A DNA stretch of 64,000 nucleotides from the NCBI RefSeq assembly GCF_000018865.1, contig NC_010175.1, forward strand, positions 1,550,001 to 1,614,000, read 5' to 3'. Positions 6,380-46,530 of the stretch are shown in pieces (positions within the stretch are counted from its first letter, which is position 1; each line of letters begins with the position of its first letter). The notes beneath the pieces were generated by a model. That model was given only the letters and a program-made list of their open reading frames with translations, was not told where the DNA came from and did not search any database. The DNA is from Chloroflexus aurantiacus J-10-fl. Its GTDB lineage: Bacteria > Chloroflexota > Chloroflexia > Chloroflexales > Chloroflexaceae. The position numbers and the translations under genes are program-made.

Positions 6380-6445
6380 TGTTGCTCACTATCTGACGAC
6401 AATTGCCTGATGGCTGAACTATGCCGGGTACGTAGGTTTTAAAGC

Positions 6446-6478
6446 ACGAATGCACAGAAAAATGCTCTGTGCATTCGT
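6446..6478 (-). terminator. Hairpin downstream of the FAH-family gene
   Basis: There is a perfect 13-bp inverted repeat (ACGAATGCACAGA and its complement) with a 7-base loop, 33 bases after the stop of the minus-strand hydrolase gene. It is followed only by a short weak T stretch (GCTTTAAAA), so it is either a weak intrinsic terminator or a 3' stabilising hairpin. Confidence 0.6.
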
Positions 6479-6510
6479 CTGCCGTGGATATGGAATAGGG
6501 GCAACCTGGT

Positions 6511-7373: not shown

Positions 7374-7395
7374 GTGACCTCCGTATCACCCACAC

Positions 7396-8490: not shown

Positions 8491-8971
8491 AGCGATGAGT
8501 CCTTTGCTGCGATGATGTCACTGTTCATCTTACCACAGACGCGCCTCAGCGCTGTTTGCCAGTTCGATGTAGAAGCCATTTTATTTGACAAGTCAGATGA
8601 TCGCAACGATCCCGCACGTTGCCCCTACGACCGGTATGGTGACTGATGCAACGCTGGTGCAAAGATGCGGGCAGCACTGGCATAGCGGTGGGCACAGCAT
8701 GGGGCGCAGGTGATTATCGTCTGAACTACACGCTGCTAGCATAGTAGGGCGAGGAGCATACCGGGTCATGGTACATTCCTGACCAACAGGGATGCCTCTG
8801 CAGGTGACGCAAAGTGGGATGCGCTGCGGCGCTGGGATGAACAGCGGCACGCCAGTTGTACTTTAACACAGAGAGTATGCCGGTGCCTGTCGTTGAGCAA
8901 GAGTTGGTATACATGCAGGTAACACTGGCGTGAAACACGATACTGCAACCTGGCATATTCCGGTGATGAAA
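8491..8971. other. Intergenic region without a supported gene
   Basis: About 480 bases between the M50 start and the gmd terminator. Reading frames here are short, use no ribosome binding site and have no recognisable domain. The segment GCCCCTACGACC near 8620 resembles one arm of the palindrome found at 28516-28549, but no partner arm is present. Confidence 0.5.
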
Positions 8972-9007
8972 CAAAAAAACCGCTCTACCCATATCCGGGC
9001 AGAGCGG
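8972..9007 (-). terminator. Intrinsic terminator of the gmd unit
   Basis: A 7-bp stem (CCGCTCT/AGAGCGG), extended inside the loop by CCC/GGG, is followed on the minus strand by seven T residues. It lies 27 bases after the stop of the small gene that follows gmd. Confidence 0.85.
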
Positions 9008-28965: not shown

Positions 28966-30678
28966 TCACTCGCTCTTCGTTGCGCGCCGGAAATCGCGCA
29001 CCAGCAGCCGTAAGCGACGCTGTCCGTTCCATTCATCAACTGCCAACTGGTACGCCAGATCGATGTTTGGATGACGACGAAGCGCATCCGCGAAGCGACC
29101 AAAGTGAAAACCGATAGCCTCGAACGAGGTCTGACCGACACGCACACGCATCCGCAGATGATTGCCATCAGTTGTCGGTTGCGGATCGATGACTGTAACA
29201 TTGGGGGTCATGAACACAGGCTGCGGATTACCCTGTCCAAACGGTTCGAGCTGGCACAGGGTAGCGTATAGATCCCACGATAAATCACTTAATGGCACAG
29301 TGGCATCGATCAACAATCGTGGTACGAGCTGTTCGGCTGACAGATGCTGGCTCCCCAGGGCCAGTAACCGCTGTTCGAGCGCCGTAATCTGGTTCGTGGA
29401 AATCGTAAAACCGGCAGCCGCAGCATGTCCACCATAACGGACAAAGAGATCGGCACATTGATCGAACAGATCGATGATACTAAACCCGGGGATCGAGCGC
29501 GCTGATCCACGTGATGTCTCCTCGCCTTGCTCGATCACAATTACCGGACGATGATAGGTCTCAACCAAACGGGCGGCGACCAATCCGATAACACCCGCGT
29601 TAAAACCGGGGTGCGAGACGACAATCAGCGGATGTTCGGTGCGACCACTCTGCATCACCATGGTTTCTGCCATGGCATATAATTGCCGGGTCAATGCCTG
29701 CCGCTCACGATTGGTGGTATTCAATTCGGCAGCCAGCAGATCGGCTTTCATTCGCTCATCAGCCAGGAGCAGCTCATACGCACGACGCGCATCGGCTAAG
29801 CGACCGGCTGCGTTGAGGCGCGGTGCCAGAGCGAACGCAATTGCGCCGCTGTCGATCATACCCGGCGACAGGCCGGCAGCCGCCACCAATGCCAGGACAC
29901 CAGGACGCGAACTTTCATTGAGCGCAATCAAGCCGGCCCGTACCAACACCCGATTCTCGTCGTGGAGTGGACCCATATCGGCGACAGTGCCTAGCGCAAC
30001 CAGATCGAGCAGATCACGTCCACGTAAACCGGCTGGCCGCTTACCGTAGCGTGCCAGTGCCTGCACGACTTTGAAGGCAATCCCGACCCCAACCAGACCT
30101 TTGAATGGATAGGCACAGTCGGGCTGGCGTGGATTCACTATTGCCAGGGCTGGCGGCAGCAACATGGGTGGATGGTGGTGATCAGTGACAATCACATCGA
30201 GGCCGAGCCGATTGGCTTCGGCTACCTCTGCATAATTGGAAATGCCGCAGTCGACCGTTATCAGCAATGTGACACCATCGGCCACCAACTGACTAATCGC
30301 CAGATTGTTAAGACCATACCCTTCGCGGGCACGATGCGGAATGTATGGCCGAATCCGTCCCCCCATCGCCTTGATCGCCTGCGTCAGCAGGGCAACCGCA
30401 GTGATCCCATCGACATCAAAATCGCCGTAGACGGCGATCAATTCGCCCCGCTCAATCGCTTCGGCAATACGACCGGCAGCGGCTGCCATACCTCGCATGG
30501 CAAACGGATCGTGCAGGCCGGAGCTGTAATCAGCGTTAAGAAAAGCTCTGGCGATGGATGGCTCATGCAAGCCACGCTGATAAAGAAGGTGTGCAAGCAA
30601 CGGGTGCAGACCAAGTTGCTCAACGAAAGAAGTGGGTGCTGGCGGACGGATCTCCCAGCGCTGACGGCGAGCTGACAT
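28966..30678 (-). CDS. recJ: Single-stranded-DNA-specific exonuclease RecJ
   Basis: The 570-residue protein has the DHH phosphoesterase motifs in order: VYGDFDVDGITAVALL, VDCGISNYAEV, IVTDHHHPP and, in the DHHA1 domain, RYGGHAAAAGFTI. The C-terminal OB-like domain follows. RecJ degrades 5' single strands in recombination and repair; here it converges with mutL across a 920-base repeat region. All metal ligands appear intact. Confidence 0.95.
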   Translation of the reverse strand: MSARRQRWEIRPPAPTSFVEQLGLHPLLAHLLYQRGLHEPSIARAFLNADYSSGLHDPFAMRGMAAAAGRIAEAIERGELIAVYGDFDVDGITAVALLTQAIKAMGGRIRPYIPHRAREGYGLNNLAISQLVADGVTLLITVDCGISNYAEVAEANRLGLDVIVTDHHHPPMLLPPALAIVNPRQPDCAYPFKGLVGVGIAFKVVQALARYGKRPAGLRGRDLLDLVALGTVADMGPLHDENRVLVRAGLIALNESSRPGVLALVAAAGLSPGMIDSGAIAFALAPRLNAAGRLADARRAYELLLADERMKADLLAAELNTTNRERQALTRQLYAMAETMVMQSGRTEHPLIVVSHPGFNAGVIGLVAARLVETYHRPVIVIEQGEETSRGSARSIPGFSIIDLFDQCADLFVRYGGHAAAAGFTISTNQITALEQRLLALGSQHLSAEQLVPRLLIDATVPLSDLSWDLYATLCQLEPFGQGNPQPVFMTPNVTVIDPQPTTDGNHLRMRVRVGQTSFEAIGFHFGRFADALRRHPNIDLAYQLAVDEWNGQRRLRLLVRDFRRATKSE

Positions 30679-30796
30679 ACCTGTAACTCCTGGCCAATAG
30701 CATCATGGCAAGCGGCGATTATTATACGCTGTTTTCATCTCAGAGGTAATTGCAACGATTTTTCATACGTATCTCCATTTGTCGGTAATAGTGGAG

Positions 30797-30805
30797 TGCT
30801 ATTAT
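30797..30805 (+). promoter_or_regulatory. Possible extended -10 promoter of the binding-protein/kinase unit
   Basis: TGCTATTAT lies 46 bases upstream of the lipoprotein ATG. No clear -35. Confidence 0.4.
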
Positions 30806-30850
30806 TAAAACCGTTGAGAATGGTAAATCGTTGCACTATCATCACACTTT

Positions 30851-31903
30851 ATGCTACCACGTCTCATTTCTACAATCCTGCTCTGCTGCATCCTGATCGG
30901 ATGTACCATACCACCATCACCGCCATCACTGCCTTCTTCGTTGCCGGTGTTGCATATTCTGAACCGGGAAACCTCGATTGATCATGCGCTCCTGGTGCAA
31001 TTTACTGCCGAAACCGGGGTAGATATTGCGTATCATACGTACAGGAGTAGTGAAGAAGCGTACAATCTGCTAACAACGAGCAAGCAAGGCTACGATCTGA
31101 TCATCGTCAGTGATGAACTGGCCGAGCGCTTACGTCGTGAGCAAAGACTGGCTGTGCTCAATCACGAACGGATCACACATCTGAACAACATCGATCCGGT
31201 CTTTGCCAGATCGAGCATTGATCCAGGTTATCGCTTTTGTGTGCCATACTTGTGGCGCATCGTCGGCCTTGGTTATCGTTATTCAGCCATCGGTCGCGAG
31301 ATCGAGAGTCTGGCAGCAGCGTTTGATCTGGCTCAAATCAAGCGCATGGCCTTGATCGATGATGCACGTGTAAGTTTGGGACTGGTCCTGATTATGTTGG
31401 GGTATAGTCCAAATACCAGTGATCCGGTCGCTATCGGTGCGGCCCGGGACTGGTTACTAACGGTGCGACCGTACATACAGTATCTTGCCGCAAATGACGG
31501 ACAGGATATGTTGCAACAAGACAGGGTTGACATTGTTGTGGAGTGGAGCGGTGATTTGTTGCAAGTGGCACGTACCGATGATAACCTGCGTTTTGCCATT
31601 CCCCAGGAGGGTAGTCTGTTTACGGTTGATAGCATGTGTATACCGACTGGGTCTGCTCAGCAAGCGGCTGCCGAACAGTTTATCGATTTTATCCTGGATG
31701 CTGAAAACGGTGCAGCTCTAGCCAATACGACCCGCTACGGCACACCCAATCAGGCTGCGTGGCCGCTGTTAGATGCTGAGTTACAGGCGCAGATTCAGCA
31801 TCAACAGACTCTTGAGCAAAGAGGATTACTCTTTCGGCTAATTGATGTAGACCCTGCGGTACGTGAACTGTACCGTGCGGCGTGGATAGAGGTACGCCAA
31901 TGA
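30851..31903 (+). CDS. Periplasmic-type solute-binding lipoprotein, PotD-like
   Basis: The 350-residue protein begins with a lipoprotein signal (LISTILLCCILIGC, cysteine near residue 18). The mature part follows the two-lobe fold of spermidine/putrescine-type binding proteins: YDLIIVSDELAERL, RFCVPYLWRIVGLGYRY, WSGDLLQVARTDDNLRFAIP and AAEQFIDFILDAENGAAL. There is no permease or ATPase gene next to it. Instead its stop overlaps the start (ATGA) of a sensor-kinase gene, so it probably delivers a ligand signal to the kinase rather than feeding a transporter. Confidence 0.85.
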   Translation: MLPRLISTILLCCILIGCTIPPSPPSLPSSLPVLHILNRETSIDHALLVQFTAETGVDIAYHTYRSSEEAYNLLTTSKQGYDLIIVSDELAERLRREQRLAVLNHERITHLNNIDPVFARSSIDPGYRFCVPYLWRIVGLGYRYSAIGREIESLAAAFDLAQIKRMALIDDARVSLGLVLIMLGYSPNTSDPVAIGAARDWLLTVRPYIQYLAANDGQDMLQQDRVDIVVEWSGDLLQVARTDDNLRFAIPQEGSLFTVDSMCIPTGSAQQAAAEQFIDFILDAENGAALANTTRYGTPNQAAWPLLDAELQAQIQHQQTLEQRGLLFRLIDVDPAVRELYRAAWIEVRQ

Positions 31904-32622
31904 CGTCATCAACCCCTTCATGCCGACGTCGTCTCGTTGTCGGGATTGCCGGTGCCGTTTCGTTTTCGTTATTGATCTCATTCATTGGGTTGGGCCTGTT
32001 CTTATTCCTTCAAGATCAGGCCATTCGGCGATCACGGCAACTTGAAAAGATACTGGAAACAACGCTCGATCTCAAGGCAGACTTTCTGATAGCCCGCCAG
32101 TACGATTACGACCTGATTGAGCTGGCGCGTCACAATCAACGCCTCGACTCGATAGTTGAGAGGAAACATTCAGCAGCCATCACTAATGTTGTAACAGGGT
32201 TGCATGAACTGGCGACGTTTGATGCAGATGTTCCTGAACTGGTATCCCATCGACAAGCGATGGCTCGTCTGCTGGAGCAATACCAGACGACAGTAAACCA
32301 GATCAAAGATCAGATCGAACAGCGTCAGCGTACTGACGGTATTGAACAGGAGCTGCGTGACGCACGGTACAAACTCTGGCAACACCTTGAGCGTAGTCCC
32401 GCCGACTTTCGAGAACTTGGTTTACGTCTCTCCTTAGACGAACAGGCATATCTCTCGACCCGACGACAAGAGTATATCGATAATGTTCGACTTCAGATTA
32501 ATAAACTCTACGCCATCGCATCCTCTTTGCCGGATACGGAACGAGTCGTGGTAGAACGAGATGTTGCTGACTATCTGGAAGATTTTTTACTGTTAGTCAC
32601 ACTTGATCGCGATTTGCAGTAA
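31900..32622 (+). CDS. Sensor histidine kinase, N-terminal sensor half (cut by an in-frame stop)
   Basis: Starting on the ATGA that overlaps the binding-protein stop, this 240-residue frame has a membrane helix (GIAGAVSFSLLISFIGLGLF, about residues 15-40) and a long helical extracytoplasmic region of about 190 residues rich in coiled-coil repeats (four-helix-bundle type sensor). It ends at TAA 32620-32622. The frame then stays open and continues directly into the HAMP-kinase frame at 32755, so this is the front part of one kinase of about 1,030 codons split by a single nonsense codon. Confidence 0.75.
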   Translation: MTSSTPSCRRRLVVGIAGAVSFSLLISFIGLGLFLFLQDQAIRRSRQLEKILETTLDLKADFLIARQYDYDLIELARHNQRLDSIVERKHSAAITNVVTGLHELATFDADVPELVSHRQAMARLLEQYQTTVNQIKDQIEQRQRTDGIEQELRDARYKLWQHLERSPADFRELGLRLSLDEQAYLSTRRQEYIDNVRLQINKLYAIASSLPDTERVVVERDVADYLEDFLLLVTLDRDLQ

Positions 32623-32754
32623 CACGCTAACACCTTACAGTATCAGACTGATGATCTCCTGCTGATCATCAGCGAACTTACGCGCATACTGAAATCTGAA
32701 CAACAACAAGTAAATGCCTCTTTTTCGACAACGATCTGGATTGGCTTCTGGCTC

Positions 32755-34998
32755 GTGATGTGGATGATCGGGAGCAGTGCCGCAATTTTCATCGGCGGTG
32801 GCTGGTTTATTAACCGCTACTTTACTCAGCCACTCATCACATTGACAAACGCAGCGCGACGAGTTGCCGAGGGATGGCGCGATACACCAATCCCGCTCGT
32901 CGGTACTGATGAAATTGGTGACCTTGCCCGCTCATTAGCGAGGCTAACTGCCAGCTTGAATGCAACGATTGCTACACTTGAAGAGCGCATCCAACAGCGT
33001 ACTGCACAATTGCAAGACGCCTTACGCGAAAAAGAGACGGTTCTTGTCCGTTCGCAGCAGCAACGATGGCGCGAACGGACATTGATTGATTTGAGTTTGC
33101 GCTTGAATAGTGCCCACAGCGAGGAGGAGATTTATCGATCTATCGTCGATGCGTTTGTTGCCATTCGTGAAAATCAAGATCGGATTGGTATCTACGTCCG
33201 TGATACGGATTCAAGGCAATGGCTGCCCTACATTACCTATGGTTATCAGCATAATCCCCTCCTTACGCTGACGGCGCCGCCTGCACTTGAGCAGTATACA
33301 GCTAATCCGTTCTACATTCCTGATCTTCGGCAGCATCAGTTCACAGACCTGATCCAGGCCGAGGGATCGGCGATTGTGGCAACGATTGCCGTGCAAGGAC
33401 ATCCCCAGGCCATACTGGTTGTCTATCGTCCACAGCCTCACGCCTTCGATCACGCTGATATTGAGAACTTGCGCCTTGCTGCGCAGTTAACGACGTATGC
33501 GCTTAATCGGGTATCCATAATGGCTGAAATGGCTGAATTACAGCGTGCCCGAGAACGCGCTGAGGTGGCCGTCCGGGAACGCAGCACATTTTTGGTTCGT
33601 CTCGATCACGATATTCGTCAACCGTTAAATACCATTATTGCGCTCAGTGAATTGTTGCGCGAGGCGCTGGCCACCCAGACCATGTTTGCCGAAGATATCG
33701 ACAAGATTCGGCGTGCCGGACGTCACCTGGTGAACCGTTTTAACCTTCTTCTCGACAGTGCAAAAATCGAGATCGGTTCTCTCAGCTTACAACCGGAACC
33801 TTTTATCTTTGATGCCCTGCTCGATAATATTCTTGAAGAAATATCACCTCTCATCCACCAACACCAGCATCGTTTTGACATTGAGCGCCCTGCACAAGTG
33901 GGGATGATCGTAGCTGATCTGAATCGGTTACGTCAGATCTTTATCTATCCGCTGCGTTTTGCTGCCACGACCACGATGCGCGGTGTGATCACACTACGTG
34001 TACAGCGATTGAGTGGCGACGAAATAGACACACTCGAAGTCATAATCACCGATACTGGACCATCACTGAGTTCAGAGCATCTGAATGCACTACTTACGCC
34101 TTTCGCCGTTCCCCCAGACACAACACGCCAGTTAGATGAAGGATGTGGTCTGGCGCTGAGCCGTCAATTGTGTGAGTTGATGGGAGGGACATTTCAGGCA
34201 GTTCCTCGTACTGCGGGTGGAGTCAGGTTCACTATTCGTATCCCTCTTAGCACGCTACGCAATGCTGAGGAAGTGTCACCGCCGGCGTACCTCCCTCAGC
34301 CTGATCTGGTGTTGATTACGACAACGCAGGCACGTGTGCTACAGTCAGCATTAGAACAATTTGGCTGGCAGGTGCAAAGCGAAGCCAGTCTTGCGCATGT
34401 GCTAAATCGTCTCTACCGTCCGCCTGCTGCCATTCTGATGGATGTACCGGAAAATCGTGATCTGGTGGTAGCGACCTTACAGGCTGCCGGCTGGCAAGAT
34501 GTGCCGATCATCTGGTTGACCGATAACGTTGAGAGTACCGGTAGCACCGATTATGCAGTATGGCCGGGGGAGACTGAACAGGTGATTCAGACGGTGCAGG
34601 TCGTGTTATCTCGCCGCTCAAGAACTGCAATGTCGCGCACCATTCTGGTAATTGATGATGAACCTCCAACACGGCTGATGATCCGTCGGGCATTGGAGAG
34701 TGATGGTTGGGTTGTATTGGAAGCAAACAACGGGCAGATTGGAGCAACCATCTGGCGTACCAATAAGCCACAACTGGTGATCATGGATATGACGTTGCCG
34801 GACGTTGATGGTCTGGTACTCTTACGCGAAGTGCGCGCCGATCTGGAAACACCGGTGATTGTGGTATCAGAGCGGACACTGCGGCGCGAGGAGCTGGAAC
34901 TTCTTGCCAGTATTGGCGCAGTCGTGTTGCAGAAGGGGCGTTATCGACGGGGTGATCTCCTTGAGCTGGTTCGCAAACTGATATGGGAACGGCTGTGA
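32755..34998 (+). CDS. Hybrid histidine kinase, HAMP-GAF-HisKA-HATPase-REC half
   Basis: This 747-residue frame is in the same frame as the upstream sensor half. It has the second membrane helix at its start, a HAMP domain (PLITLTNAARRVAEGW), a coiled coil, a GAF-like domain (about 120-260), a dimerisation domain with the phosphoacceptor in LDHDIRQPLNTIIALSELLR, an ATPase domain, a degenerate receiver-like stretch and a C-terminal receiver with ILVIDDEP, VIMDMTLPDVDG and the Lys in VVLQKGRY. The ATPase domain is degenerate: the N-box asparagine is missing (QIFIYPLRFAA), DTGxG reads DTGPS and GxGLGL reads GCGLAL. The initiator is uncertain (GTG 32755 or ATG 32758/32764), without a ribosome binding site. 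Confidence 0.8.
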   Translation: MMWMIGSSAAIFIGGGWFINRYFTQPLITLTNAARRVAEGWRDTPIPLVGTDEIGDLARSLARLTASLNATIATLEERIQQRTAQLQDALREKETVLVRSQQQRWRERTLIDLSLRLNSAHSEEEIYRSIVDAFVAIRENQDRIGIYVRDTDSRQWLPYITYGYQHNPLLTLTAPPALEQYTANPFYIPDLRQHQFTDLIQAEGSAIVATIAVQGHPQAILVVYRPQPHAFDHADIENLRLAAQLTTYALNRVSIMAEMAELQRARERAEVAVRERSTFLVRLDHDIRQPLNTIIALSELLREALATQTMFAEDIDKIRRAGRHLVNRFNLLLDSAKIEIGSLSLQPEPFIFDALLDNILEEISPLIHQHQHRFDIERPAQVGMIVADLNRLRQIFIYPLRFAATTTMRGVITLRVQRLSGDEIDTLEVIITDTGPSLSSEHLNALLTPFAVPPDTTRQLDEGCGLALSRQLCELMGGTFQAVPRTAGGVRFTIRIPLSTLRNAEEVSPPAYLPQPDLVLITTTQARVLQSALEQFGWQVQSEASLAHVLNRLYRPPAAILMDVPENRDLVVATLQAAGWQDVPIIWLTDNVESTGSTDYAVWPGETEQVIQTVQVVLSRRSRTAMSRTILVIDDEPPTRLMIRRALESDGWVVLEANNGQIGATIWRTNKPQLVIMDMTLPDVDGLVLLREVRADLETPVIVVSERTLRREELELLASIGAVVLQKGRYRRGDLLELVRKLIWERL

Positions 34999-37054: not shown

Positions 37055-38503
37055 CTACGTACCCAACAGTTCAAGCGCAGTTTCAGCTCGTTGTCGCCAG
37101 ATGCTGGCTGGTGCCTGATCGGCAACTGCTTCCAGAGCGGCACGTCCGCGCCTTAGGTCACCTTGAGCACAAAGAATTAACCCGTAGTAGAAACGTGCTT
37201 CAACGCCACCCCCTGCTGTCAGGGCAGCATCGGCTGCGGCTAACGCACCGCTCAGATCGCCGCAATAGTAGCGGGTACCGGCCAGGATGGTTAAGGCTTC
37301 GGGATCGGTAGGTAAGCTATTGACTGCTGCCTGCGCTGCGAGGATGCCACTACTGCAACGCTCGAAGCCGCTATCAAGATGAAAACGAGCGGCTATTGTC
37401 AGATAACGGCTGCGCTCATCTGGTGAAGCAGTAATGACTGCCTGTTCGTAAGCATCGGCAGCGGCCACAAAGTCACGTTGAGCAAAAGCTAATCCCGCCT
37501 GTGCCAGGGCAATGGCCGGTCCGCTATGATGCTGAGCCTGAATCTGTTGCAGGCGAGCGGCCGCTGCCGAGAGGTCGCCGGTACGAATATAGGCGACTGC
37601 GAGCAATGCCCCGATCCGGACATCGTCAGGATGCGCCGCAGCAAGCTGTTCGAGTTGTACGATCCCCTGTTGCTGGTTCCCCAGACGCAAGTGAGCGTAG
37701 GCTCGATAGATGGCTGCACTCAACCCATGGGCACCTGCTGGATCGACCTGCGCGAAGAATGCGAGGGCCAGATGATCGTATCCCAATTCCAGGGCCAGTT
37801 GGCCGAGTAGTTGTGGTCGTGCAGCCGGATCGGCCATAAGTGCAGTTGAAAGAGCTTCTGTCCCTGCCTGCGGCGGAAGGAGTGGACGCAAAAAGGGATC
37901 TGCAAGGACAGTAGACACTTGTAGATTCACCGGCGTTTCGTGGTTTGGATTGTGCAGAGCACTGAGTAATGTTAGCCGTTCCCCTACCATTGCAACCCAG
38001 TCTGCTGGTAATTGTTCCGTCGCCACTGATTGATACGCAGCGAAGGCTGCGTCAAACCGGCCTGCCCGCAGATCATCGTCGGCCAGCAATAGATCACGAA
38101 TGGCACAACGATTGGGAAGACAAGTGGTTAGTGTCTGCCAGGTGCGACGTGCTGCTCTGGGGTCACCCTCCAGGAAGGCTATCTGTCCCAGGTAGAGCAC
38201 AGCAAGCTGATATTCTGCCGGCCGTAGACCGGTTTGAATAGCAGCAGCGAATGCTCGCCGGGCCGGATCGGTTTCACCACGTATCGTGAATACAATACCT
38301 CGCCGCAGCTCTGCTTCACTTAACACATTTGCCAGGGCTGCATATTGGTTAAGTGCAGCACGGTAGTGACCAGCAGCGAAGAGGGTATCTACCTGTCGCA
38401 ATGCATCGTAGGGATCAGGGCGAAGTGCAAGCCACCCTGCAATACCAGCGATCAGGATGCTGATTGACCAGGCAGTGAGTTGTCGCCAGTGGGAGGAGAT
38501 CAC
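37055..38503 (-). CDS. TPR-repeat protein with N-terminal membrane anchor
   Basis: The 482-residue protein has one membrane helix at the start (LTAWSISILIAGIAGWLAL) and then a chain of TPR-like helix pairs through to the end: DTLFAAGHYRAALNQYAALA, AVLYLGQIAFLEGDPRAARR, IYRAYAHLRLGNQQQGIVQL, LAVAYIRTGDLSAAAARLQQ, AGLAFAQRDFVAAADAYEQA and YYGLILCAQGDLRRGRAAL. It is probably a scaffold on the membrane surface; partners are unknown. Its start overlaps the zinc-ribbon gene stop (ATGA), so the two are cotranscribed. Confidence 0.85.
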   Translation of the reverse strand: MISSHWRQLTAWSISILIAGIAGWLALRPDPYDALRQVDTLFAAGHYRAALNQYAALANVLSEAELRRGIVFTIRGETDPARRAFAAAIQTGLRPAEYQLAVLYLGQIAFLEGDPRAARRTWQTLTTCLPNRCAIRDLLLADDDLRAGRFDAAFAAYQSVATEQLPADWVAMVGERLTLLSALHNPNHETPVNLQVSTVLADPFLRPLLPPQAGTEALSTALMADPAARPQLLGQLALELGYDHLALAFFAQVDPAGAHGLSAAIYRAYAHLRLGNQQQGIVQLEQLAAAHPDDVRIGALLAVAYIRTGDLSAAAARLQQIQAQHHSGPAIALAQAGLAFAQRDFVAAADAYEQAVITASPDERSRYLTIAARFHLDSGFERCSSGILAAQAAVNSLPTDPEALTILAGTRYYCGDLSGALAAADAALTAGGGVEARFYYGLILCAQGDLRRGRAALEAVADQAPASIWRQRAETALELLGT

Positions 38504-38697
38504 GACTCGTCATCTTCAGCGGGCGATTCAGGACGGCGACGCTGATTATCGCGACGATTACGGCATTTTGGGCAGCGTGTCGGCTCATTAAGAAAGCCTT
38601 TATCAGCGTAAAATTCCTGTTCACCGGCAGTGAAGATAAACGTTGCTCCACAACTACGGCAGATCAATTCCATGTCTCGATAAAAGATCATTGCCAT
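38500..38697 (-). CDS. Zinc-ribbon protein (zinc_trcl-like)
   Basis: The 65-residue protein has two CxxC knuckles, LICRSCGATF and PTRCPKCRNRR, separated by FTAGEQEFYADKGF, the pattern of the small bacterial zinc-ribbon family whose members have no known function. The tail is polar and acidic (PESPAEDDES). The gene overlaps the TPR gene by four bases and has an extended -10 promoter 47 bases upstream. Confidence 0.85.
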   Translation of the reverse strand: MAMIFYRDMELICRSCGATFIFTAGEQEFYADKGFLNEPTRCPKCRNRRDNQRRRPESPAEDDES

Positions 38698-38743
38698 AGG
38701 CGCCTACCGAAACCGAAACGATGCAGATTATTCTTTATTTTAT

Positions 38744-38752
38744 ATTGTACCA
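38744..38752 (-). promoter_or_regulatory. Extended -10 promoter of the zinc-ribbon/TPR unit
   Basis: The minus strand reads TGGTACAAT, the same word as upstream of mutL. Predicted start near 38737. Confidence 0.5.
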
Positions 38753-38796
38753 CGCTGACTTATGTTTTGTCGGTATATTACTACCCGTGTCGGTAG

Positions 38797-39759
38797 TTAT
38801 CCTGGTCGTCCGACAACGATCCGATTTTTGCCGGCGGCTTTCGCCTGTAAGAGTGCTGTGGTGGCAATTTGCAGCGCAACCCCGGCAGTATGACCGTGTT
38901 GTGGGATCGAGGCAATTCCAACCGAAATTGTGACTGGAAACGGCCAGAGCTGTGATCGTTCGATGACACGCTGGCGTAATCGTTCAGCCAGTGCAGCCGC
39001 TCCACTTACACCGGTGTTGGGTAATACCGCCAGAAACTGGTCTCCCGTCTGCCAGCGGGCGAGAAAATCACTCGGTCGTAATTGTTCACGGAGGACGGTA
39101 GCCAGATCGCGGATCATCTGATCGCCGGCAGCATAACTCATTTCGTTGTAGCGACGGAGGTCATCACCATTCATCAGCAACACACTACACGCCTGACTTT
39201 GTCTCTGCGCTGTTAGAATCAGCTCCTCAAGGCGTTGCCGGGCAGCAAAGCTATTTGGCAAACCGGTAACCGGGTCGAGATCGAATTGATGCTGATCATT
39301 GAGCGTAGCCCCTAACGCTGCGAGTTGAGCAATCAATCGGTTGAGCAGTGTCCCCGGATCGGCGGTATCGGGGATCAGAAATTGCAGAATCGTCGCCGGG
39401 TCACTGTCCGCGGGAACGTGATGGTAGCGAATAACCGGTATTGTGCTCAGATCGAGACGTTGTGCCTGCCGGTGCAAGAGTGTCTGTAACCGTTCAATCT
39501 GTGCAACCTGTGTGGCTGGAGCGCCTGGTGGAACTACGATCACAAATTGGGTATTCCCCGGTTGGTAGATTGTTCCCGCCAGCTCTTCGCGCAACAAGAG
39601 GGCCAGCCAGCGTAATGTTGCGGGTGTTGGCGGATGTGGTAGTTGAATGTCGATGAGGCCACATGGCGTGGTCGGTTGCGCCAGCCATTCGGCGAAAGCG
39701 AGTAGGTTAGCGGTACCGGTGTTGGGGTCACGGCGCAGAATAGTTGTTATGTCTGGCAT
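38797..39759 (-). CDS. GGDEF-domain protein with a degenerate active site
   Basis: The 320-residue protein has an uncharacterised N-terminal part of about 160 residues and a diguanylate-cyclase fold from FDLDPVTGLPNSFAARQRLE to the end (ISVGIASIPQHG, ALLQAKAAGKNRIVV). The signature that should read GGDEF is TGDQF (ARWQTGDQFLAVLP), so the first Gly and the catalytic Glu are changed. It is unlikely to make cyclic di-GMP and may instead bind GTP or act as a protein partner. No membrane helix is present. Confidence 0.85.
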   Translation of the reverse strand: MPDITTILRRDPNTGTANLLAFAEWLAQPTTPCGLIDIQLPHPPTPATLRWLALLLREELAGTIYQPGNTQFVIVVPPGAPATQVAQIERLQTLLHRQAQRLDLSTIPVIRYHHVPADSDPATILQFLIPDTADPGTLLNRLIAQLAALGATLNDQHQFDLDPVTGLPNSFAARQRLEELILTAQRQSQACSVLLMNGDDLRRYNEMSYAAGDQMIRDLATVLREQLRPSDFLARWQTGDQFLAVLPNTGVSGAAALAERLRQRVIERSQLWPFPVTISVGIASIPQHGHTAGVALQIATTALLQAKAAGKNRIVVGRPG

Positions 39760-40023
39760 AGGTTGCTCTCAGCTTTATTCAATAGTGCCAACCCGGCATG
39801 ATGTTGGCCCGATTGTCGTTTGATGGTATGCTATCTCATTATACGAGTCATTTTGGTGAATTTGCAGCTATCGGTTGCACGAATCTGGAGATGTCAGGAT
39901 CATGTCATAGATGATCTGGCATCTCGAACACGGGCATGGTACAGCCACCCGGAAAACTATCTTTCCTGCAAACACAAGAACTGCTGACATGCGCCAGGGA
40001 GATCGCCAGGGTTTTTCCAATCA
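39760..40023. other. Intergenic region upstream of the GGDEF gene
   Basis: A TATAAT at 39843-39838 on the minus strand could serve the GGDEF gene, though it lacks the TGn extension. No gene is supported in this stretch. Confidence 0.4.
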
Positions 40024-40240
40024 GTGTAGAAGTTATCTCATTCATTACTGAATGATCGTGACGAATACACATAGCATCCCTGTGACCAGCAGGGTCAACG
40101 GCGTAACCCGCATCGGATCGTGAGCACGGCTGCTGCGGCAGCGTGGCTGCCGCACTCCAAATGCTGCGACACGCGGATGACATCGGACAAGGCAATTAAT
40201 CCAGCGTGTGACTGCACCGGAGATGGTTGGCAGCCATCCT
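40024..40240 (+). repeat. About 220-bp dispersed repeat R1, copy 1
   Basis: This stretch is homologous along its whole length to the reverse complement of 49750-49977. Conserved blocks in order are TGTAGAAGTTATCTCAT, ATCGTGACGA, ACCAGCAGGGTCAACG, GGATCGTGA, GCGGCAGC/GCTGCCGC hairpin (40135-40153), CCGCACTCCAAATGCTGCGA, GCAAGGCAAT/CAAGGCAAT, AATCCAG and GCACCGGAGATGGT. No reading frame is preserved between copies, so the element is non-coding. It lies upstream of no obvious start and may be a MITE- or REP-like element. Confidence 0.7.
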
Positions 40241-40463
40241 CATTGCCATCCTGGCAGACTGGAATCAGGATATACTTCGTTAGTGATTGGCAAGCGTTTA
40301 TGCGCCTGTGTGATGGTCAGGTAACACGACCGCACAGCCTTTATGAAATAAGTTCTAGCACAGGTTACAGCCTGTGCTGCACGTATGGCTGCGCGTCCTG
40401 TCTCGCCCCGCGTTATCCAAAAGCGATATTTTTGTGACGAGTTTCCGGCACATAACAGCGTGC

Positions 40464-40718
40464 TTACCGATGCTCGACTATCCGCAATTGGCTAATCTGC
40501 CCAAGTGCCGAACGATCTCGCGGATCGATAGGGAGACGGGCACCGCGGTAGTTGAAGCGGTAGATGCGACCACTCACCGGGCCGATGACAATCAGCGCCG
40601 CATGACCGGTGTACTCGCAGAAGGTAGCGAAGCGCTGATTACCCGTGGTTTGCGAGGGACTGGTCGTTGTGCCGGTTGTGATCGGTGCCCATGCTCGATT
40701 CTTGCCGCAGCATGTCAT
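40464..40718 (-). CDS. Small conserved protein with N-terminal CCGKNRAW motif
   Basis: The second of two adjacent ATGs, at 40718, follows GGGAGG at five bases and gives 84 residues. The N-terminus MTCCGKNRAWAP is followed by a low-complexity Thr/Ser linker and a compact beta-rich domain (FCEYTGHAALIVIGPVSGR, IYRFNYRGARLPIDPRDRSA). It overlaps the end of the DUF1360-like gene by about 80 bases and completes the three-gene unit led by the Trp-rich protein. I recognise the general look of the domain but no function. Confidence 0.65.
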   Translation of the reverse strand: MTCCGKNRAWAPITTGTTTSPSQTTGNQRFATFCEYTGHAALIVIGPVSGRIYRFNYRGARLPIDPRDRSALGQISQLRIVEHR

Positions 40719-41031
40719 CATAACCTCCCTGAGATGGTATCTCATAGACTATTGGTTTCGGTGCACTTACTCGCTCGATAACGATAGCGCCACCAGAAAA
40801 TGCCAGCCAGTACAATCCTGCTTCAACCCAGGTTGGCGCGTAGTATAAGGCGACCGGTAATGCGAACCAGAGGCTCAGGCAATAGAAACAAGCGAGTGCC
40901 TGACCCAAAAAACTCCCATCTGCCCACTGTCGCAAGCGTAAGAACATCGCCCAGGGGCCATCTTCAGCATGAAAGAGGTGGGTGATGCGCCAGACGGCAC
41001 ATATCGCAATGATTAGGCTCAGCCATGACAT
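40639..41031 (-). CDS. DUF1360-like small membrane protein
   Basis: The 130-residue protein has a first hydrophobic helix (SWLSLIIAICAVWRITHLF), the segment EDGPWAMFLRLRQWADGSFL, a cysteine pair in LACFYCLSLWFALPVALYY, another helix (AGLYWLAFSGGAIVIERV) and a polar tail. This is the pattern of DUF1360 proteins, whose function is unknown. It lies 90 bases after the Trp-rich gene and overlaps the next small gene, so the three are likely one operon. Confidence 0.75.
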   Translation of the reverse strand: MSWLSLIIAICAVWRITHLFHAEDGPWAMFLRLRQWADGSFLGQALACFYCLSLWFALPVALYYAPTWVEAGLYWLAFSGGAIVIERVSAPKPIVYEIPSQGGYDDMLRQESSMGTDHNRHNDQSLANHG

Positions 41032-41121
41032 AACAGCAATCCGTGATATTCAGTGTTGGCGAGTGGTGTTAGCCGATTCGGTAGAAAATGCCGTACCGGC
41101 TAACACGCACTCACCGCTCTC

Positions 41122-43215
41122 CTAGACGGCAACCGTCAGGCTGTAGAAACTGAGCTTTCGCGGGTGATAATCGTAGTTGCAATTGACGATGGTGCGCTTG
41201 TAGACCCGCAACTCGATTTGATAGCAGCATGTGATCGGGAAGGCGCAGCGCAGGTCAGGAATGGTTAAGCGTAATCCCCCACCACGCCAGTGTGGTGCCG
41301 TTGCCCCCTGACTACGTGCTGCTCCGTAATCGGGACCAACCTGATCAGCGGCGGGAGCAGTTGGCGGTAGAGAAATAGGCGTTAGTGTGGCCCCCGGACA
41401 CGTCAGCAGATTGACACGACCGTTCTTGCCGTAGGTTGCTTCGAGGGTGTAGAACGCCAGATGCTGACCGACATCGTAGGCGATAAAATCAATCTCAAGC
41501 GTGCCGCCGCTGTCGGCAATGATATTGGCACAGGGATCGGCCAGACTACCATTGATGCGTACTGCGACAATATCGGCTGCCGGCTCAAGATTGCTGGTAC
41601 TGTTGTCAATGGTAAGCACCAGGTAGTTCGGGTGATCGGTATTGCAGATCGGCAGGATTTGGGGATGACCCAATTGCGGATTCGCTCCTGTCCCGGTGTT
41701 TTGATAACCGACCAGACGCAAATAGTACGTACCATCGGTAAAGGTATTGGTAGTCAGCCACTGGAGTAGCAGATTGGGATTACTCACCCAGAAACGGCTC
41801 AGCCCCCAGCTCCCCGGAGCATTGTTTGCCTCGAAGAATGTCCGTGAAGGAGCAACCAGTCGTCCGCTGATCGGGGTGAAATTGATCGGGACCGTATGGA
41901 AGTCAACCGGCCCCGCAGGCAGTGCCGGCCCCCAGAAGGTGCGCGTAAAATTCCCAACTGCCGCGGGTGGCATGGGTTGCCACGGCCCACCTGGACTGGT
42001 CGCCCATTCAAATTCGTAGAAATCAACCATCGCTGCACTGCCAAACTGTCCGCCAATTGATACCGTACCGGCAAAGGGGCGATCACCGTACAGGGCTGCG
42101 ACATTCGGATTTAGATAACCAGCCGGTGCTGGAATAGCGCCCATATTCCCGCCGATATTGTTGCTCAGGCTACTGCACACATTCGCTACCACAACGCAGT
42201 TGCCTTCAGGTGGCGGTGGATTGTCAATGCAACACGCTGCCTCGTTAGCGACCAGCGTCACACTCATATTCGTGGGAATATTCCAGCGCGTATCGGCGAT
42301 AGTCTCGTCAACGATGACTTTGAGTCGACCTTCGCATTGCTGGGTGACTTGAAAGATAATATCCGGTGTACAATCCCACCATGGTTGCCAGGGTGCCCAG
42401 GGCCAGATGCGCAATTGTTCAAGTTCGGGGATATGTGGCAGACGTGTGCGTAGCTTCTCACGCAGTGCTGGCAACACGGCTGTATCGAATGGTTGGCTCA
42501 CCAGGGCCATTGCCTGACCATCGCGTTCCAGCAATGGCGCAAAGACAGCGGGTGAGGGCCGCGGATCGGGGATAGGAATGGGAAAATCAGGTACCTGCTC
42601 GACAATCGGGCGTAACAGATCGACGAGCCAGGGTTCAAGCTGCCAGTAGCGAATTCGCCACCACCACCATGGCCACCAGCCACAACACCAGCGAAACTTG
42701 ATGGTGAACGCACCATTGGCATCGGTCGTATCACACCCCACCTGTTGGCGACTGGACCACCACCACCAGTGGTCGATATCGAAGGCACACACCCGTGCCC
42801 CAGGGACCGGCTTTCCATCAGGACAGACAACCCGACCGGTGATCACAAAATAGCGACACCAGCGTCGCCACCAATGCCAGTAGTAAGTTGAGATCGAGAT
42901 CGGTTCCAGCTTAAACTGGCGCTCCTGCAACGTCCGTGCTGATATAGTGCGACTAATGCTTTGGAGACGAGGCAAATCCTCGTCCTCAGCATCGGCTGGA
43001 CCAACGATGATGTTCAGGGTATCAGGAGCACCACTCAGTTCAACGCGGACTACCGCTCTGCCCGTTTTATCAAAACGAGCCAGTGAAGAGTGCAAAATGT
43101 TACCGGCACCCTCAACCACGACTTTGACCGGCGTCTCAGGAGAGAAATCATCAACGCTGCTTGCATCGAGGGGAATCTCGAAACTCAGTCGCCGTGATTG
43201 CTTTTGGTCTGCCAT
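41122..43215 (-). CDS. Large Trp/Cys-rich protein with carboxypeptidase-regulatory-like domain
   Basis: The 697-residue protein has no signal peptide. Residues 1-110 are ordinary and mostly beta-strand. Residues 124-172 form a carboxypeptidase-regulatory (transthyretin-like) beta domain: FVITGRVVCPDGKPVPGARV, then CDTTDANGAFTIKF. Around it, 22 Trp occur between residues 113 and 280, including WWWW at 150-153 and at 183-186, plus YYWHWWRRWC and WPWAPWQPWW. Cysteines are numerous (CC at 177-178, ACC, ITCC). Residues 340-697 are Pro/Gly/Asn-rich beta repeats like a structural or fibre-type protein. I know of similar Trp-rich proteins annotated only as hypothetical; no function is proven. It heads a three-gene unit and is preceded by an AT-rich island. 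Confidence 0.8.
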   Translation of the reverse strand: MADQKQSRRLSFEIPLDASSVDDFSPETPVKVVVEGAGNILHSSLARFDKTGRAVVRVELSGAPDTLNIIVGPADAEDEDLPRLQSISRTISARTLQERQFKLEPISISTYYWHWWRRWCRYFVITGRVVCPDGKPVPGARVCAFDIDHWWWWSSRQQVGCDTTDANGAFTIKFRWCCGWWPWWWWRIRYWQLEPWLVDLLRPIVEQVPDFPIPIPDPRPSPAVFAPLLERDGQAMALVSQPFDTAVLPALREKLRTRLPHIPELEQLRIWPWAPWQPWWDCTPDIIFQVTQQCEGRLKVIVDETIADTRWNIPTNMSVTLVANEAACCIDNPPPPEGNCVVVANVCSSLSNNIGGNMGAIPAPAGYLNPNVAALYGDRPFAGTVSIGGQFGSAAMVDFYEFEWATSPGGPWQPMPPAAVGNFTRTFWGPALPAGPVDFHTVPINFTPISGRLVAPSRTFFEANNAPGSWGLSRFWVSNPNLLLQWLTTNTFTDGTYYLRLVGYQNTGTGANPQLGHPQILPICNTDHPNYLVLTIDNSTSNLEPAADIVAVRINGSLADPCANIIADSGGTLEIDFIAYDVGQHLAFYTLEATYGKNGRVNLLTCPGATLTPISLPPTAPAADQVGPDYGAARSQGATAPHWRGGGLRLTIPDLRCAFPITCCYQIELRVYKRTIVNCNYDYHPRKLSFYSLTVAV

Positions 43216-43359
43216 TACGAACCTCCTTCTAATACTGAATCCTTCTAATCCCGACGTGCGTACTGAGACCAGAACAGTGCCTTGCTTCGTGGTCGTGGAT
43301 GGAGTTAGTTGTAAATTTCACAACAGTACCGTAAACCATTGCTGAACAGCAAATGGTTT

Positions 43360-43640
43360 GTGGGTTTGTTTGTGAAAATCAGCGTTTTCTCAGTTTATTT
43401 GTTCTAAACCATACGTTTACCTTTCACGTCATTATTCGCACTCGATGTCTTTATTAACGTTGAAGAGTATGATTTTTGCGATTTTTATTGATTTTAATAA
43501 TATATTAACTATTTTGCGGCTTTAACCAATACAAAATTTATCGATATTGCATAATTAATCATACAACACTTTTATCAAATAACCAGTAAAAATATTATTT
43601 AATCTAAATAAAAAGTTAACAAAAAGTATAATCCGGTTAT
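43360..43640. other. AT-rich island upstream of the Trp-rich gene
   Basis: Within a moderately GC-rich genome, this stretch is strongly AT-rich, with runs such as TTTTTATTGATTTTAATAAT, ATTATTTAATCTAAATAAAA and CATAATTAATCATACAAC. No reading frame of useful length is present. It could be a promoter/curved-DNA region, a transfer footprint or a replication-related site. Its position directly before the unusual operon is suggestive. Confidence 0.6.
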
Positions 43641-44292
43641 CTGTCTTTTATCTCTTCAGCACGAGGAACATCCTGTATCTCTTGGTTCAGCAGAGGCACA
43701 TCCGGTAAGCGCAGGGGATGATGACGAGGAGGTAGCCCGATGTTGTCGAATAGCCACTATCAGATGCTAGCGGGAGACATACAGTGCGATGAAGACAGCC
43801 GCGTCTTTGTGCTACCGATGACGTGATCTGGTCTTCCGTGAACGCAGCGTAGTCCTGGCCTCCGCAAGATAGGGTCACCCCTGAACCAATGCGCCAGGAG
43901 CATCGATTCAGGGGTGACTGTCGTGGTATGACGCCGGGTTATATCAAATCTTGACTGACACGGTATATCATGCAGGTTTCAGACCCTTGCTAACTACCAG
44001 TGAGCCACTGGCGGGTCAACACGGGTGCATGTGCCAGTTCACGGGCAGTCGTGTGAGGGCAGCACCAGTATGATGCGTGGTTAGCGTGTCGTGCTTGCAC
44101 TGCTTCCAGCAGTGCTCTGCAACACGCTTCTACACTAACCCGCTCATGCTGGATGTCAACAGAGCATGAAAGCACGTGCGGGGAATACGGCTTGGGAATG
44201 CGCTGAATACCATCACCCCGACCCTTCTTCTATGCTGCGCGAGAGGGGAGTGCAGCAGTCTGATCCAGGTCCTCCTGATGAGGTAATGAGGG
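43641..44292. other. Intergenic region with scattered hairpins
   Basis: No gene is supported. It includes the 12-bp hairpin at 43874-43918 and a partial inverted repeat around 44079-44146 (GTTAGCGTGT against ACACGCT and AACC). Reading frames are short and lack ribosome binding sites. Confidence 0.45.
43874..43918. repeat. Hairpin with 12-bp stem
   Basis: GTCACCCCTGAA pairs with TTCAGGGGTGAC across a 21-base loop that contains its own small inverted repeat (ATGC/GCAT). No gene is close on either side; it may be a remnant of a repeat element. Confidence 0.5.
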
Positions 44293-44325
44293 GGCATTGT
44301 GTTAGCTTATATTTTCTGGCCGTCC
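44293..44325 (+). repeat. Dispersed repeat fragment (copy of 28712-28744)
   Basis: GGCATTGTGTTAGCTTATAT followed by TTTCTGGCCGTCC matches the other copy at 28 of 33 positions, same orientation. Confidence 0.5.
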
Positions 44326-44417
44326 TTGAACCCACTACCGGCCGGAGTCACCGTTACAGAGTGCCTCCGCTGGCGCTGGTTCAGGAGTGCGGTACCCCAC
44401 CAGGAGAGAACTACGGT

Positions 44418-44444
44418 GAGTGCGGAAGCCAGGCCTCCGCACTC
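44418..44444. repeat. Dispersed hairpin repeat R2
   Basis: A perfect 9-bp stem GAGTGCGGA with a 9-base loop, followed by CAAACC. Related hairpins with the same flank occur at 12483-12517 and, imperfectly, at 49990-50027; the central part of R1 carries a similar one. Confidence 0.6.
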
Positions 44445-44646
44445 CAAACCATGTGGCACGCGACATTTTGAGCATGAACGGTATTCGCGTCGATCCGTGA
44501 TGTTTGCGTGGATCGATGACAGATGAATCTTCTCCTGCCGCAACCCCACCGCTTGTACAACGAGGGGTGTTGTTCAGAGACATCCCTTTGCTGAAACAGC
44601 ACCTGACAGGCTACTTGTGCGGCAGGGTTCAACCTGTCCAGATTGA

Positions 44647-46269
44647 CTAAGCACGACGCACAATCAGGCTCTGCCCGGTCATATCGGGTGACGGTTCTAA
44701 CTCCAACAGTTCGAGCAGTGTTGGTGCCACGTCGGCCAATCGTCCACCGTGCCGCAGTTCGATAGCATCTTTGCCATAACCGGCACCACCGATCAGGAAA
44801 CAAGGTGCCGGATTGGTGGTGTGTGCCGTGTGCGGCCCCCCAGTTTCCGGGTCAATCATCTGCTCGGCGTTCCCGTGATCGGCGATGACGAGGGCCACGC
44901 CGCCCCGCTCCAGAATGGCCGGCACCACCCGCGCCAACCCGGCATCAACGGCTTCACAGGCTTTGATCACCGCCGGGATACTCCCGGTGTGACCAACCAT
45001 ATCAGGGTTGGCGTAATTGACCACGATGAAATCGTATTGATCGCTATCAATTGCGGCCAGCAGAGCCTCGGTGACTTCCGGGGCACTCATTTCCGGTTTC
45101 AGATCGTAAGTGGCGACTTTGGGTGATGGAATGAGCTGACGATCTTCGCCAGGAAACGGCTCTTCGCGCCCACCATTGAGGAAGAAGGTGACGTGCGGGT
45201 ATTTCTCGGTCTCGGCAATATGAAACTGGCGCAGCCCGGCCTGACTGATCACAGCGGCCAGCGGATTGGTGACGTAACGGGGCGGGAAGGCAACCAGTAC
45301 CGGCAAGCCCTCTTCGTATTGGGTCATGGTCACGAAACAGAGATCGCGCAACTGACGCTCACGCTGCCAGATCGTGGCAGGCAACGGCTGGCCTTCAGCC
45401 TTTTGCCGTTCATAGTGCTGACGAATACGTTCGTTGAGGTCTGGATCAACAAAAGCGCGGGTCAACTGCCGACCGCGGTCGGGGCGGAAGTTGGTAAAGA
45501 TCACGGCATCGCCATCGCGCACGGTAGCGGTTGGTTCGCCGCTGGCGGTGACAATCACTGTGGGTAAGACAAATTCATCACTGACATCACGGGCATACGA
45601 TGCCTCAATCGCTGCCCGCGCTGAAGGTGCCTTCTCACCCACCCCATCAACCAGGGCCGCATACGCCCGTCCCGTGCGTTCCCAGCGCTTATCACGATCC
45701 ATCGCATAGTAACGACCGGAAACGGTAGCAATCGTGCCGACGCCAAGCCGGGCGATCACCCCTTCGAGGGTGTCGAGAAAACCCAGGGCACTGCGCGGCA
45801 ACACATCGCGCCCGTCGAGGAAGAGGTGGAGATAGACGCGCTGGAGATGATGGCGGTGGGCCAGTTCCAGCAGCGCGTGCAGGTGATCTTCATGGGCATG
45901 GACGCCTCCAGGCCCAAACAACCCCATCAAATGTAAGGCCGAGTTGCGCTGTTTGACGTGTTCGATAGCCTGGAGCAAGACCGGGTTGGTAAAAAAATCA
46001 CCATCGGCAATCGCTTTGCTGATGCGCGTCAGTTCTTGATAGACCACAAAACCGGCCCCAATATTGAGATGGCCTACCTCGGAGTTCCCAATCTGACCTT
46101 CAGGCAGGCCAACATCAAGCCCTGAAGCTCCCAATGTTGTAAAGGGGCAATTCGCCATCCACGCATCAACATGGGGCGTATCGGCCAAATCAGCCGCATT
46201 ACCCGGCCCTGGCGGCGCAATACCCCAGCCATCCATAATTATCAAGACCACCGGACGTGGACGTGTCAT
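44647..46269 (-). CDS. gpmI: 2,3-bisphosphoglycerate-independent phosphoglycerate mutase
   Basis: The 540-residue protein has the metal-binding start VVLIIMDGWGI, the phospho-serine motif GQIGNSEVGHLNIGAG, the HAHEDHLHALLELA segment, FLDGRDV, FTNFRPDRGRQL and the C-terminal metal site MVGHTGSIPAVI and IADHGNAEQM. It interconverts 3- and 2-phosphoglycerate using two manganese ions. It is the last gene of a five-gene minus-strand run with glcD and glcE, 12 bases after a small membrane protein gene. Confidence 0.96.
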   Translation of the reverse strand: MTRPRPVVLIIMDGWGIAPPGPGNAADLADTPHVDAWMANCPFTTLGASGLDVGLPEGQIGNSEVGHLNIGAGFVVYQELTRISKAIADGDFFTNPVLLQAIEHVKQRNSALHLMGLFGPGGVHAHEDHLHALLELAHRHHLQRVYLHLFLDGRDVLPRSALGFLDTLEGVIARLGVGTIATVSGRYYAMDRDKRWERTGRAYAALVDGVGEKAPSARAAIEASYARDVSDEFVLPTVIVTASGEPTATVRDGDAVIFTNFRPDRGRQLTRAFVDPDLNERIRQHYERQKAEGQPLPATIWQRERQLRDLCFVTMTQYEEGLPVLVAFPPRYVTNPLAAVISQAGLRQFHIAETEKYPHVTFFLNGGREEPFPGEDRQLIPSPKVATYDLKPEMSAPEVTEALLAAIDSDQYDFIVVNYANPDMVGHTGSIPAVIKACEAVDAGLARVVPAILERGGVALVIADHGNAEQMIDPETGGPHTAHTTNPAPCFLIGGAGYGKDAIELRHGGRLADVAPTLLELLELEPSPDMTGQSLIVRRA

Positions 46270-46281
46270 TGGACGTTCTCC

Positions 46282-46530
46282 TTATCCCAAACCAAGAGCT
46301 ACCTGAACGATGCGCCACGCTGCCAGTAGCCCAAGCAGCGCGGCTCCGAGTAGAGGAACAACGGTCAGCAACAGGCTCCAGATGCGTTCACCCATTGCAG
46401 GATTGGTACTCACGAACCCACGCAGTAATTCGCGACGGATTGCCTGCCAGCCACCCCATAAGGTTGCCAGTGCCAGTGCGGCAAAGACCAGTGCGGCACC
46501 GAGCGCGATAAGTGAACCGAGTAGCGCCAT
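46282..46530 (-). CDS. Small two-helix membrane protein
   Basis: The ATG at 46530 follows AGGAG at eight bases; an upstream ATG at 46572 would run into glcE. The 82-residue product has one helix near the start (LLGSLIALGAALVFAALALA) and one near the end (LLTVVPLLGAALLGLLAAW), with an arginine-containing loop (RRELLRGFVSTNPAMGER) between them. No family recognised. It lies between glcE and gpmI in the same run of genes. Confidence 0.65.
   Translation of the reverse strand: MALLGSLIALGAALVFAALALATLWGGWQAIRRELLRGFVSTNPAMGERIWSLLLTVVPLLGAALLGLLAAWRIVQVALGLG

Follow-up and report, generated by a model that had tools for sequence, protein, structure and literature searches.

The closest described counterparts of the three-gene unit analysed here each match it only in part. 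The unit lies in the hot-spring bacterium Chloroflexus aurantiacus (strain J-10-fl) and consists of a gene for a protein with tryptophan (Trp) clusters (W), a gene for a small DUF1360-like membrane protein (D) and a further small gene that starts inside the second (S). All positions refer to the window, the whole stretch of 64,000 nucleotides that was analysed (NC_010175.1, positions 1,550,001 to 1,614,000 of the forward strand). RbmA of Vibrio cholerae, which resembles the C-terminal part of W in predicted fold, is presented as an FN3 biofilm matrix protein in PMC5605196. DUF1360 is named in PMC10551460 in a table only, and PMC3390400 ties the Trp-rich undecapeptide of the cytolysins to membrane binding. 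Among the matches listed for the open-licence PMC literature, we found no description of a Trp-rich/transthyretin-like protein or of a DUF1360 unit.

A conserved unit of three genes

Homologues of W occur at 31 loci in about ten phyla, and W, D and S are a real unit. A first-pass annotation of the window, made from the letters alone, had proposed that the three genes belong together. Their open reading frames (ORFs) lie where it had placed them, and D and S adjoin W in 17 of 22 loci, with S alone adjoining it in one more (L024). This count takes in full-length W loci with at least about 0.8 kb visible on both sides; it excludes L007 and L017 (short flank; the D of L017 runs into the contig end), L022, L030 and L032 (W truncated where the contig stops) and the short forms L026, L028, L029 and L033. 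The gene order is W-D-S, except in L018, L019 and L023, where it is D-S-W. Each of the 12 host genomes searched holds one copy of W, full or short, and one of these genomes has a small partial match as well. As to the neighbours that the first-pass annotation had wished to see checked, D and S are the constant ones: the commonest family besides the three genes is found in 6 of the 31 loci, at varying places, and the contractile-injection or spore-coat genes that had been suggested as possible company are absent from the 20 neighbour proteins scanned, which are a part of all neighbours.

A separate observation concerns the acidobacterial branch of short forms, where L026 (4653-9134), L028 (5119-9134) and L032 (3-3942) have a TPR-CHAT gene and then, after a gap of about 100 to 170 bp, the start of the W-like gene; L033 does not. 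These are three of the four loci of this branch with visible upstream DNA, and in L032 the W gene runs off the contig. An anti-sigma-like zf-HC2 gene is found upstream in L026 and L028 as well.

The composition of W is exactly as the first-pass annotation had counted it, with 697 residues, 22 Trp between residues 113 and 280, and two WWWW runs; these lie at 150-153 and 183-186. Such density is rare in the window: among the 42 ORFs taken as genes, the densest 168 residues of the second- and third-ranking proteins hold 10 and 7 Trp. Across an alignment of 26 sequences (the window and 25 loci), 15 of the 22 clustered Trp are invariant, as against one of the eight outside this region. Neither of the outcomes that the first-pass annotation had named as refuting its view, rare co-occurrence of the three families and Trp clusters that orthologues do not keep, was observed. 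Taken over the whole protein, 16 of 30 Trp columns are invariant compared with 74 of all 697 (Fisher odds ratio 12, p 2e-9). Conservation is just as marked for cysteine (Cys), with 14 of 19 columns invariant, so that the Trp figure shows conservation and gives no reason for it. Fifteen Trp identical across about ten phyla must serve some exact role. W and D are under strong purifying selection, as had been supposed for W: between the window and the second Chloroflexus copy, dN/dS is 0.06 for W, 0.06 for D and 0.31 for S, values that are only rough because synonymous sites are near saturation.

No family model among those used covers W as a whole, and a sequence search for solved relatives gave no convincing match for W, D or S. 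The transthyretin-like domain that had been read into the Trp region is weak by sequence (CarboxypepD_reg, PF13620, on residues 125-173 with 22.4 bits, below the curated cut-off of 32.3); in the AlphaFold model, residues 120-177 are predicted as beta strands, mostly with good confidence. This model (mean pLDDT 83.6, lower at 180-190, 210-250 and 270-280) presents W as a predicted chain of beta-sandwich domains. The fold search is dominated by residues 337-697. For residues 543-697, the match is RbmA (VIA-align: Z 8.2, rmsd 2.9, 103 aligned); the two rows above it have an rmsd of 14 or more.

Among 60 relatives, W is present in only one other genome, a Chloroflexus (G002), where the unit adjoins the homologue of the gene at 7396-8490 and then meets the contig end; in the window, it adjoins the GGDEF gene (38797-39759). 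In three other Chloroflexus (G006, G001 and G007), the homologues of these two genes lie 444, 484 and 579 bp apart, measured between alignment ends, and this interval contains none of W, D and S. The simplest reading places the unit in this one interval in both carriers, has it come or go as a single block and supposes a later rearrangement in the window. The likely rearrangement breakpoints are at 8500-9000 and 44450-44650. In six relatives, homologues of parts of 28982-34998 follow the homologue of the gene at 44647-46269, which reads as a phosphoglycerate mutase.

In the W tree, the window sequence groups beside one from Acidobacteriota and then one from Deinococcota, with starred support; the starred branches require 6 or more changes for Acidobacteriota and 4 or more for Pseudomonadota. 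With phyla intermingled at high support, horizontal movement of the unit is probable and the simplest reading, and errors in metagenome bins could contribute to the pattern.

Constant small genes beside variable large proteins

D and S also occur next to large proteins other than W, which we call X. We reached these through weak profile matches to proteins that lack Trp runs and likewise stand before D and S. Counted by the phylum of a given genome, a profile search with D found matches in 7 of 297 genomes (G430), 1 of 398 (G425), 3 of 247 (G434) and 1 of 246 (G733), with G430 and G434 being W hosts themselves; a search with the single D protein found 4 of 400 genomes in the window's phylum. 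S is adjacent to D in all ten D matches with an E-value of 1.1e-29 or better, two of them in W hosts, in the phyla of G430, G425 and G434. Outside the W family, the D searches gave nine D-S pairs (L058, L060, L062, L072, L073, L074, L075, L096 and L097), eight of which follow a large ORF on the same strand, from 463 (cut by a contig end) to 785 aa. Weaker D matches (L059, L061, L076 and L098) are without S, and L037 (G375) holds one further weak match. A cassette wider than W-D-S, in which D and S stay constant and X varies, is well supported; it was beyond what the first-pass annotation could detect.

The eight X proteins differ from W where W is most distinctive: WW is absent from all of them, and their richest 168 residues hold 4 to 10 Trp. 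Compared with W by hhalign, L060, L062 and L075 are related (95 to 97%), L074 (5%) and L096 (3%) give longer colinear alignments that are non-significant, and L072 and L073 align at the C-terminus only, not significantly. This comparison covered these seven X, and among 120 controls the highest value was 3.1%, over 9 columns. By eye, L058 (5229-7457) and L072 (6808-9165) have Cys-rich hydrophobic repeats, with 29 and 39 Cys, where W has Trp runs.

A common element emerges at the C-termini. Using a profile of the last 60 residues in a leave-one-out test, eight of nine proteins (seven of the eight X, together with L063) ranked first among about 492 control C-termini, and the shared X motif is defined by this test. 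L062 and L075, which both entered it, are relatives of each other. Two control ORFs from L035 and L048, whose scores stood well clear of all other controls, had been dropped before ranking (494 to 492) as overlapping copies of the X proteins of L058 and L062. A shorter candidate, IP-x-PDP-x-P, was rejected as a general motif, being present in 2 of 8 proteins and 8 of 26 W versus 1 of 190 controls. L063 itself (6437-8257) encodes 606 aa; it begins like a signal peptide, matches SGL (propeller-type) weakly and ends in the C-terminal part of W (98% by profile comparison). Within its 14-kb stretch, no D or S reached a convincing score.

The D of the window, labelled DUF1360-like in the first-pass annotation, scores 20.2 bits against PF07098, where the cut-off is 21. 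Of five D homologues scanned together, those of L060 (26.3), L020 (22.2) and L096 (21.8) clear the cut-off, and those of L005 (20.8) and L097 (13.4) fall below it, as does the D of L058 (19.2). C48, C51 and S53 are kept in 16 of 16 aligned D proteins and phage relatives. Across 17 D sequences, hydrophobic segments mostly number two or three, with only one in L015. DUF1360-like genes are also found in phages of different actinobacterial hosts (L056 5992-6291, AWGoat gp16; L057 5989-6273, A3Wally gp81).

That the S gene overlaps D was also correctly seen. The S ORF spans 40464-40745, and the ATG at 40718 (MTCCGKNRAW) is preferred on the basis of homologues and a ribosome-binding site; S thus probably starts there rather than at 40745, giving 84 aa and an 80-nt overlap. 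The S model is confident from residue 41, with a small beta domain and one helix, and a fold search with it gave no clear match (lowest E-value 0.32 against PDB, 0.037 against viral models). In L073 (9607-10345), tandem S-like genes lie behind D, the second without the CCG motif.

Table 1. Features of the W-D-S locus in window coordinates; residue numbers are those of W.
Feature	Coordinates	Strand	Description
Gene W	41122..43215	-	697-aa Trp-cluster protein; start not signal-peptide-like
First Trp cluster WHWWRRW, residues 113-119	42859..42879	-	W113, W116 and W119 in 26/26, W115 in 25/26
Predicted transthyretin-like beta-sandwich, residues 120-180	42676..42858	-	includes Trp run 150-153 (W153 in 26/26, W150 to W152 in 19 to 21 of 26)
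Core motif CCGWWPWWWW, residues 177-186	42658..42687	-	identical in 26/26
Trp-Pro motif WPWAPWQPWWDC, residues 271-282	42370..42405	-	W271, W273, W276, W279, D281 and C282 in 26/26, W280 in 18/26 (alignment of 26)
Predicted C-terminal FN3-like domain, residues 540-697	41125..41598	-	last 60 residues carry the motif common to most other X
Gene D	40639..41031	-	DUF1360-like small membrane protein, 130 aa, invariant CxxC (C48, C51)
Gene S	40464..40718	-	84 aa, N-terminal CCG, C-terminal small beta domain; starts inside D (probable start)
Stem-loop between W and D	41066..41106	-	16-nt arms, 88% complementary, no T run
AT-rich (72%) region upstream of W	43317..43650	-	likely promoter region of the unit

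The start of W is preceded by a good ribosome-binding site. The AT-rich region upstream contains two sigma-70-like matches of 9/12, a kind of match that is only about twice as frequent as in shuffled sequence. No Rfam family matched at its gathering score in 38000-46500. The unit is flanked at 40134-40175 and 44421-44462 by a 42-nt direct repeat, imperfect (76%) and palindromic in its core. A search allowing 3 mismatches recovered the query copy only, being too strict to reach a second copy of this similarity.

Possible roles of the cassette

We favour, at a little short of an even chance, a reading in which W-D-S represents a more general cassette, X-D-S, whose genes are retained and transferred jointly, and in which a D/S dock would hold or pass X at the cell envelope. 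X is a large protein with no signal-peptide-like start; its N-terminal part differs between members, with Trp runs in W and Cys-rich repeats in two other X, and its C-terminus is largely common. D and S would form a membrane dock that receives this C-terminal domain. The invariant Trp motifs just before and after the transthyretin-like sandwich may meet as one contact surface, most likely turned toward the membrane interface or envelope glycan, and assembly may involve disulfides or metal binding at the cysteines of all three proteins. The combination of constant D and S, a variable X and a largely common X C-terminus fits a handling or docking pair plus its passenger. Placement at the envelope is favoured by the predicted FN3-like and beta-sandwich folds, by the hydrophobic D and by L063, which joins a signal-peptide-like start to the C-terminal part of W. 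An envelope-associated W with its Trp as contact surface is plausible, as is the surface, envelope or secreted assembly that the first-pass annotation had suggested, but by a simple hydropathy measure a signal-peptide-like start is lacking from 24 of 24 W sequences.

A further proposal, which we consider doubtful, is that of a bacterial protein-handling system not described before. D, with its CxxC, and S, as a CCG adaptor, would recognise the shared C-terminal beta domain on signal-less X proteins and place these in or on the envelope, and the W passenger would work through its Trp patch. If true, this would be a new way for bacteria to handle large proteins without signal peptides. Because the same two small genes stand beside such unlike large proteins, what began as a single odd protein becomes a system open to experiment. 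Proteome data for C. aurantiacus exist (PMC9316378).

Several observations weigh against an envelope dock of this kind. The first concerns export: by a hydropathy measure only, a strongly hydrophobic N-terminus is found in none of the 24 W sequences, and a signal-peptide-like start in none of the seven other X measured, whose start codons are uncertain. Export of W and X would thus need an unproven route. Second, the partners are not always present. D and S are both missing beside four full-length W (L010, L012, L013 and L014), and a search for D elsewhere in their genomes and in that of L024 found none (S was not sought genome-wide); these four show that W can act alone or with other partners. 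Conversely, the D-S pair of L097 has no large neighbour, and its D is divergent. The acidobacterial short forms retain Trp runs without the C-terminal domain, D and S; by eye, in three sequences, they have also lost the cysteines at 120, 131 and 177. The joint lack of domain and partners fits D and S needing that domain, though numbers are small. Third, the shared C-terminus has its own weak points: L060 ranked only eighth in the leave-one-out test, the controls of this test are not matched for beta content and include non-gene ORFs, and a profile of the whole C-terminal domain of W, tried on seven proteins, finds L063 alone. Finally, the fold matches of W lie near the level of similarity common among beta-sandwiches (the search itself warns of Z under 8), and the stretches 180-190 and 270-280, which hold two of the Trp motifs of the proposed joint surface, are of low confidence. 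The structure prediction that the first-pass annotation had called for in the Trp region gives strands at 120-177 but little certainty around these motifs.

The lack of a signal-peptide-like start in W (0 of 24 by hydropathy) speaks for an intracellular complex, which we judge rather unlikely. Here, W would remain in the cytoplasm, anchored by D and S at the membrane's inner side, and act as a redox, metal- or ligand-binding scaffold with an aromatic pocket of Trp. Many of the Cys of W, the CC of S and the CxxC of D are invariant or nearly so, and individual Trp are strictly kept instead of being exchanged for Phe or Tyr, which fits a pocket better than simple membrane insertion. Against a cytoplasmic location, however, L063 joins the C-terminal part of W to a signal-peptide-like start, and a chain of Ig/FN3-like domains rich in paired cysteines is a common architecture of extracytoplasmic proteins.

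The variability of X beside constant partners, together with its patchy spread, could also be explained if X were a released payload, toxin-like or active within the colony and freed by lysis or by another machine. Its Trp patch would insert in target membranes, as the link between the cytolysin undecapeptide and membrane binding might suggest, and D would serve for passage or protection. A related effector would then be seen in the short forms next to CHAT proteases, with the W-like gene downstream of TPR-CHAT in L026, L028 and L032 (not L033) counting in favour. We regard this as improbable. W evolves slowly (dN/dS 0.06), unlike arms-race toxins, and immunity proteins usually vary with their toxin, whereas D is constant. 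Moreover, domain scans found no toxin domain, and W, D, S and five other X gave no PADLOC match at E 0.1.

Phage relatives of D raise the question of origin, and we give a very small chance to a phage-derived module, in which D and S would stem from head genes of tailed phages and X would be a co-opted particle protein. The two phage DUF1360 relatives described above sit between the genes of the large terminase and the portal. In addition, phrog_781 is matched by the D of the window (E 6e-4) and by that of L009 (7e-6), and the S fold is weakly like small phage proteins. However, no W homologues were found in viral contigs, phages or plasmids. The D family is likewise missing from viral contigs and plasmids, with five weak and remote matches in phages, and S is missing from plasmids, with two poor phage matches (viral contigs were not searched for S). 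Other X were also not found in viral contigs (three X), plasmids (two X) or phages (one X). Chance co-location or a gene-prediction artefact, to which the four full-length W loci without D and S might point, has next to no probability and is already contradicted by the 17 of 22 co-locations over about ten phyla, the purifying selection and the interval that is empty in relatives.

Comparison with known systems

The unit shares features with several known families and coincides with none. Set beside PF13620 and PF01060, W has predicted beta strands at residues 120-177, with GxPVPGAxV- and TDxxGxF-like stretches, and the W relative in L060 clears the PF01060 cut-off (32.4 versus 24.9 bits). Unlike PF13620, W stays below the cut-off and has Trp runs and CC pairs within and around the domain. 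With RbmA, W has 9% identity, and the feature compared is the predicted FN3-like fold of residues 543-697; where a secretion signal would be expected, hydropathy finds no strongly hydrophobic N-terminus in 24 of 24 W.

D shares with DUF1360 a CxxC followed by Ser and Trp beside a hydrophobic segment, a motif taken from our alignment and not from the Pfam text, and the D proteins of the window and of L058 lie slightly under the family cut-off. The undecapeptide of the cholesterol-dependent cytolysins resembles W in having dense Trp beside Arg and Cys, a comparison of how the two might work only. We found no relation of fold or family between these cytolysins and W, whose Trp motifs flank a transthyretin-like domain and which is no known toxin. 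The cassette with its Trp module fits no system tested and points to a kind of gene cassette not described before.

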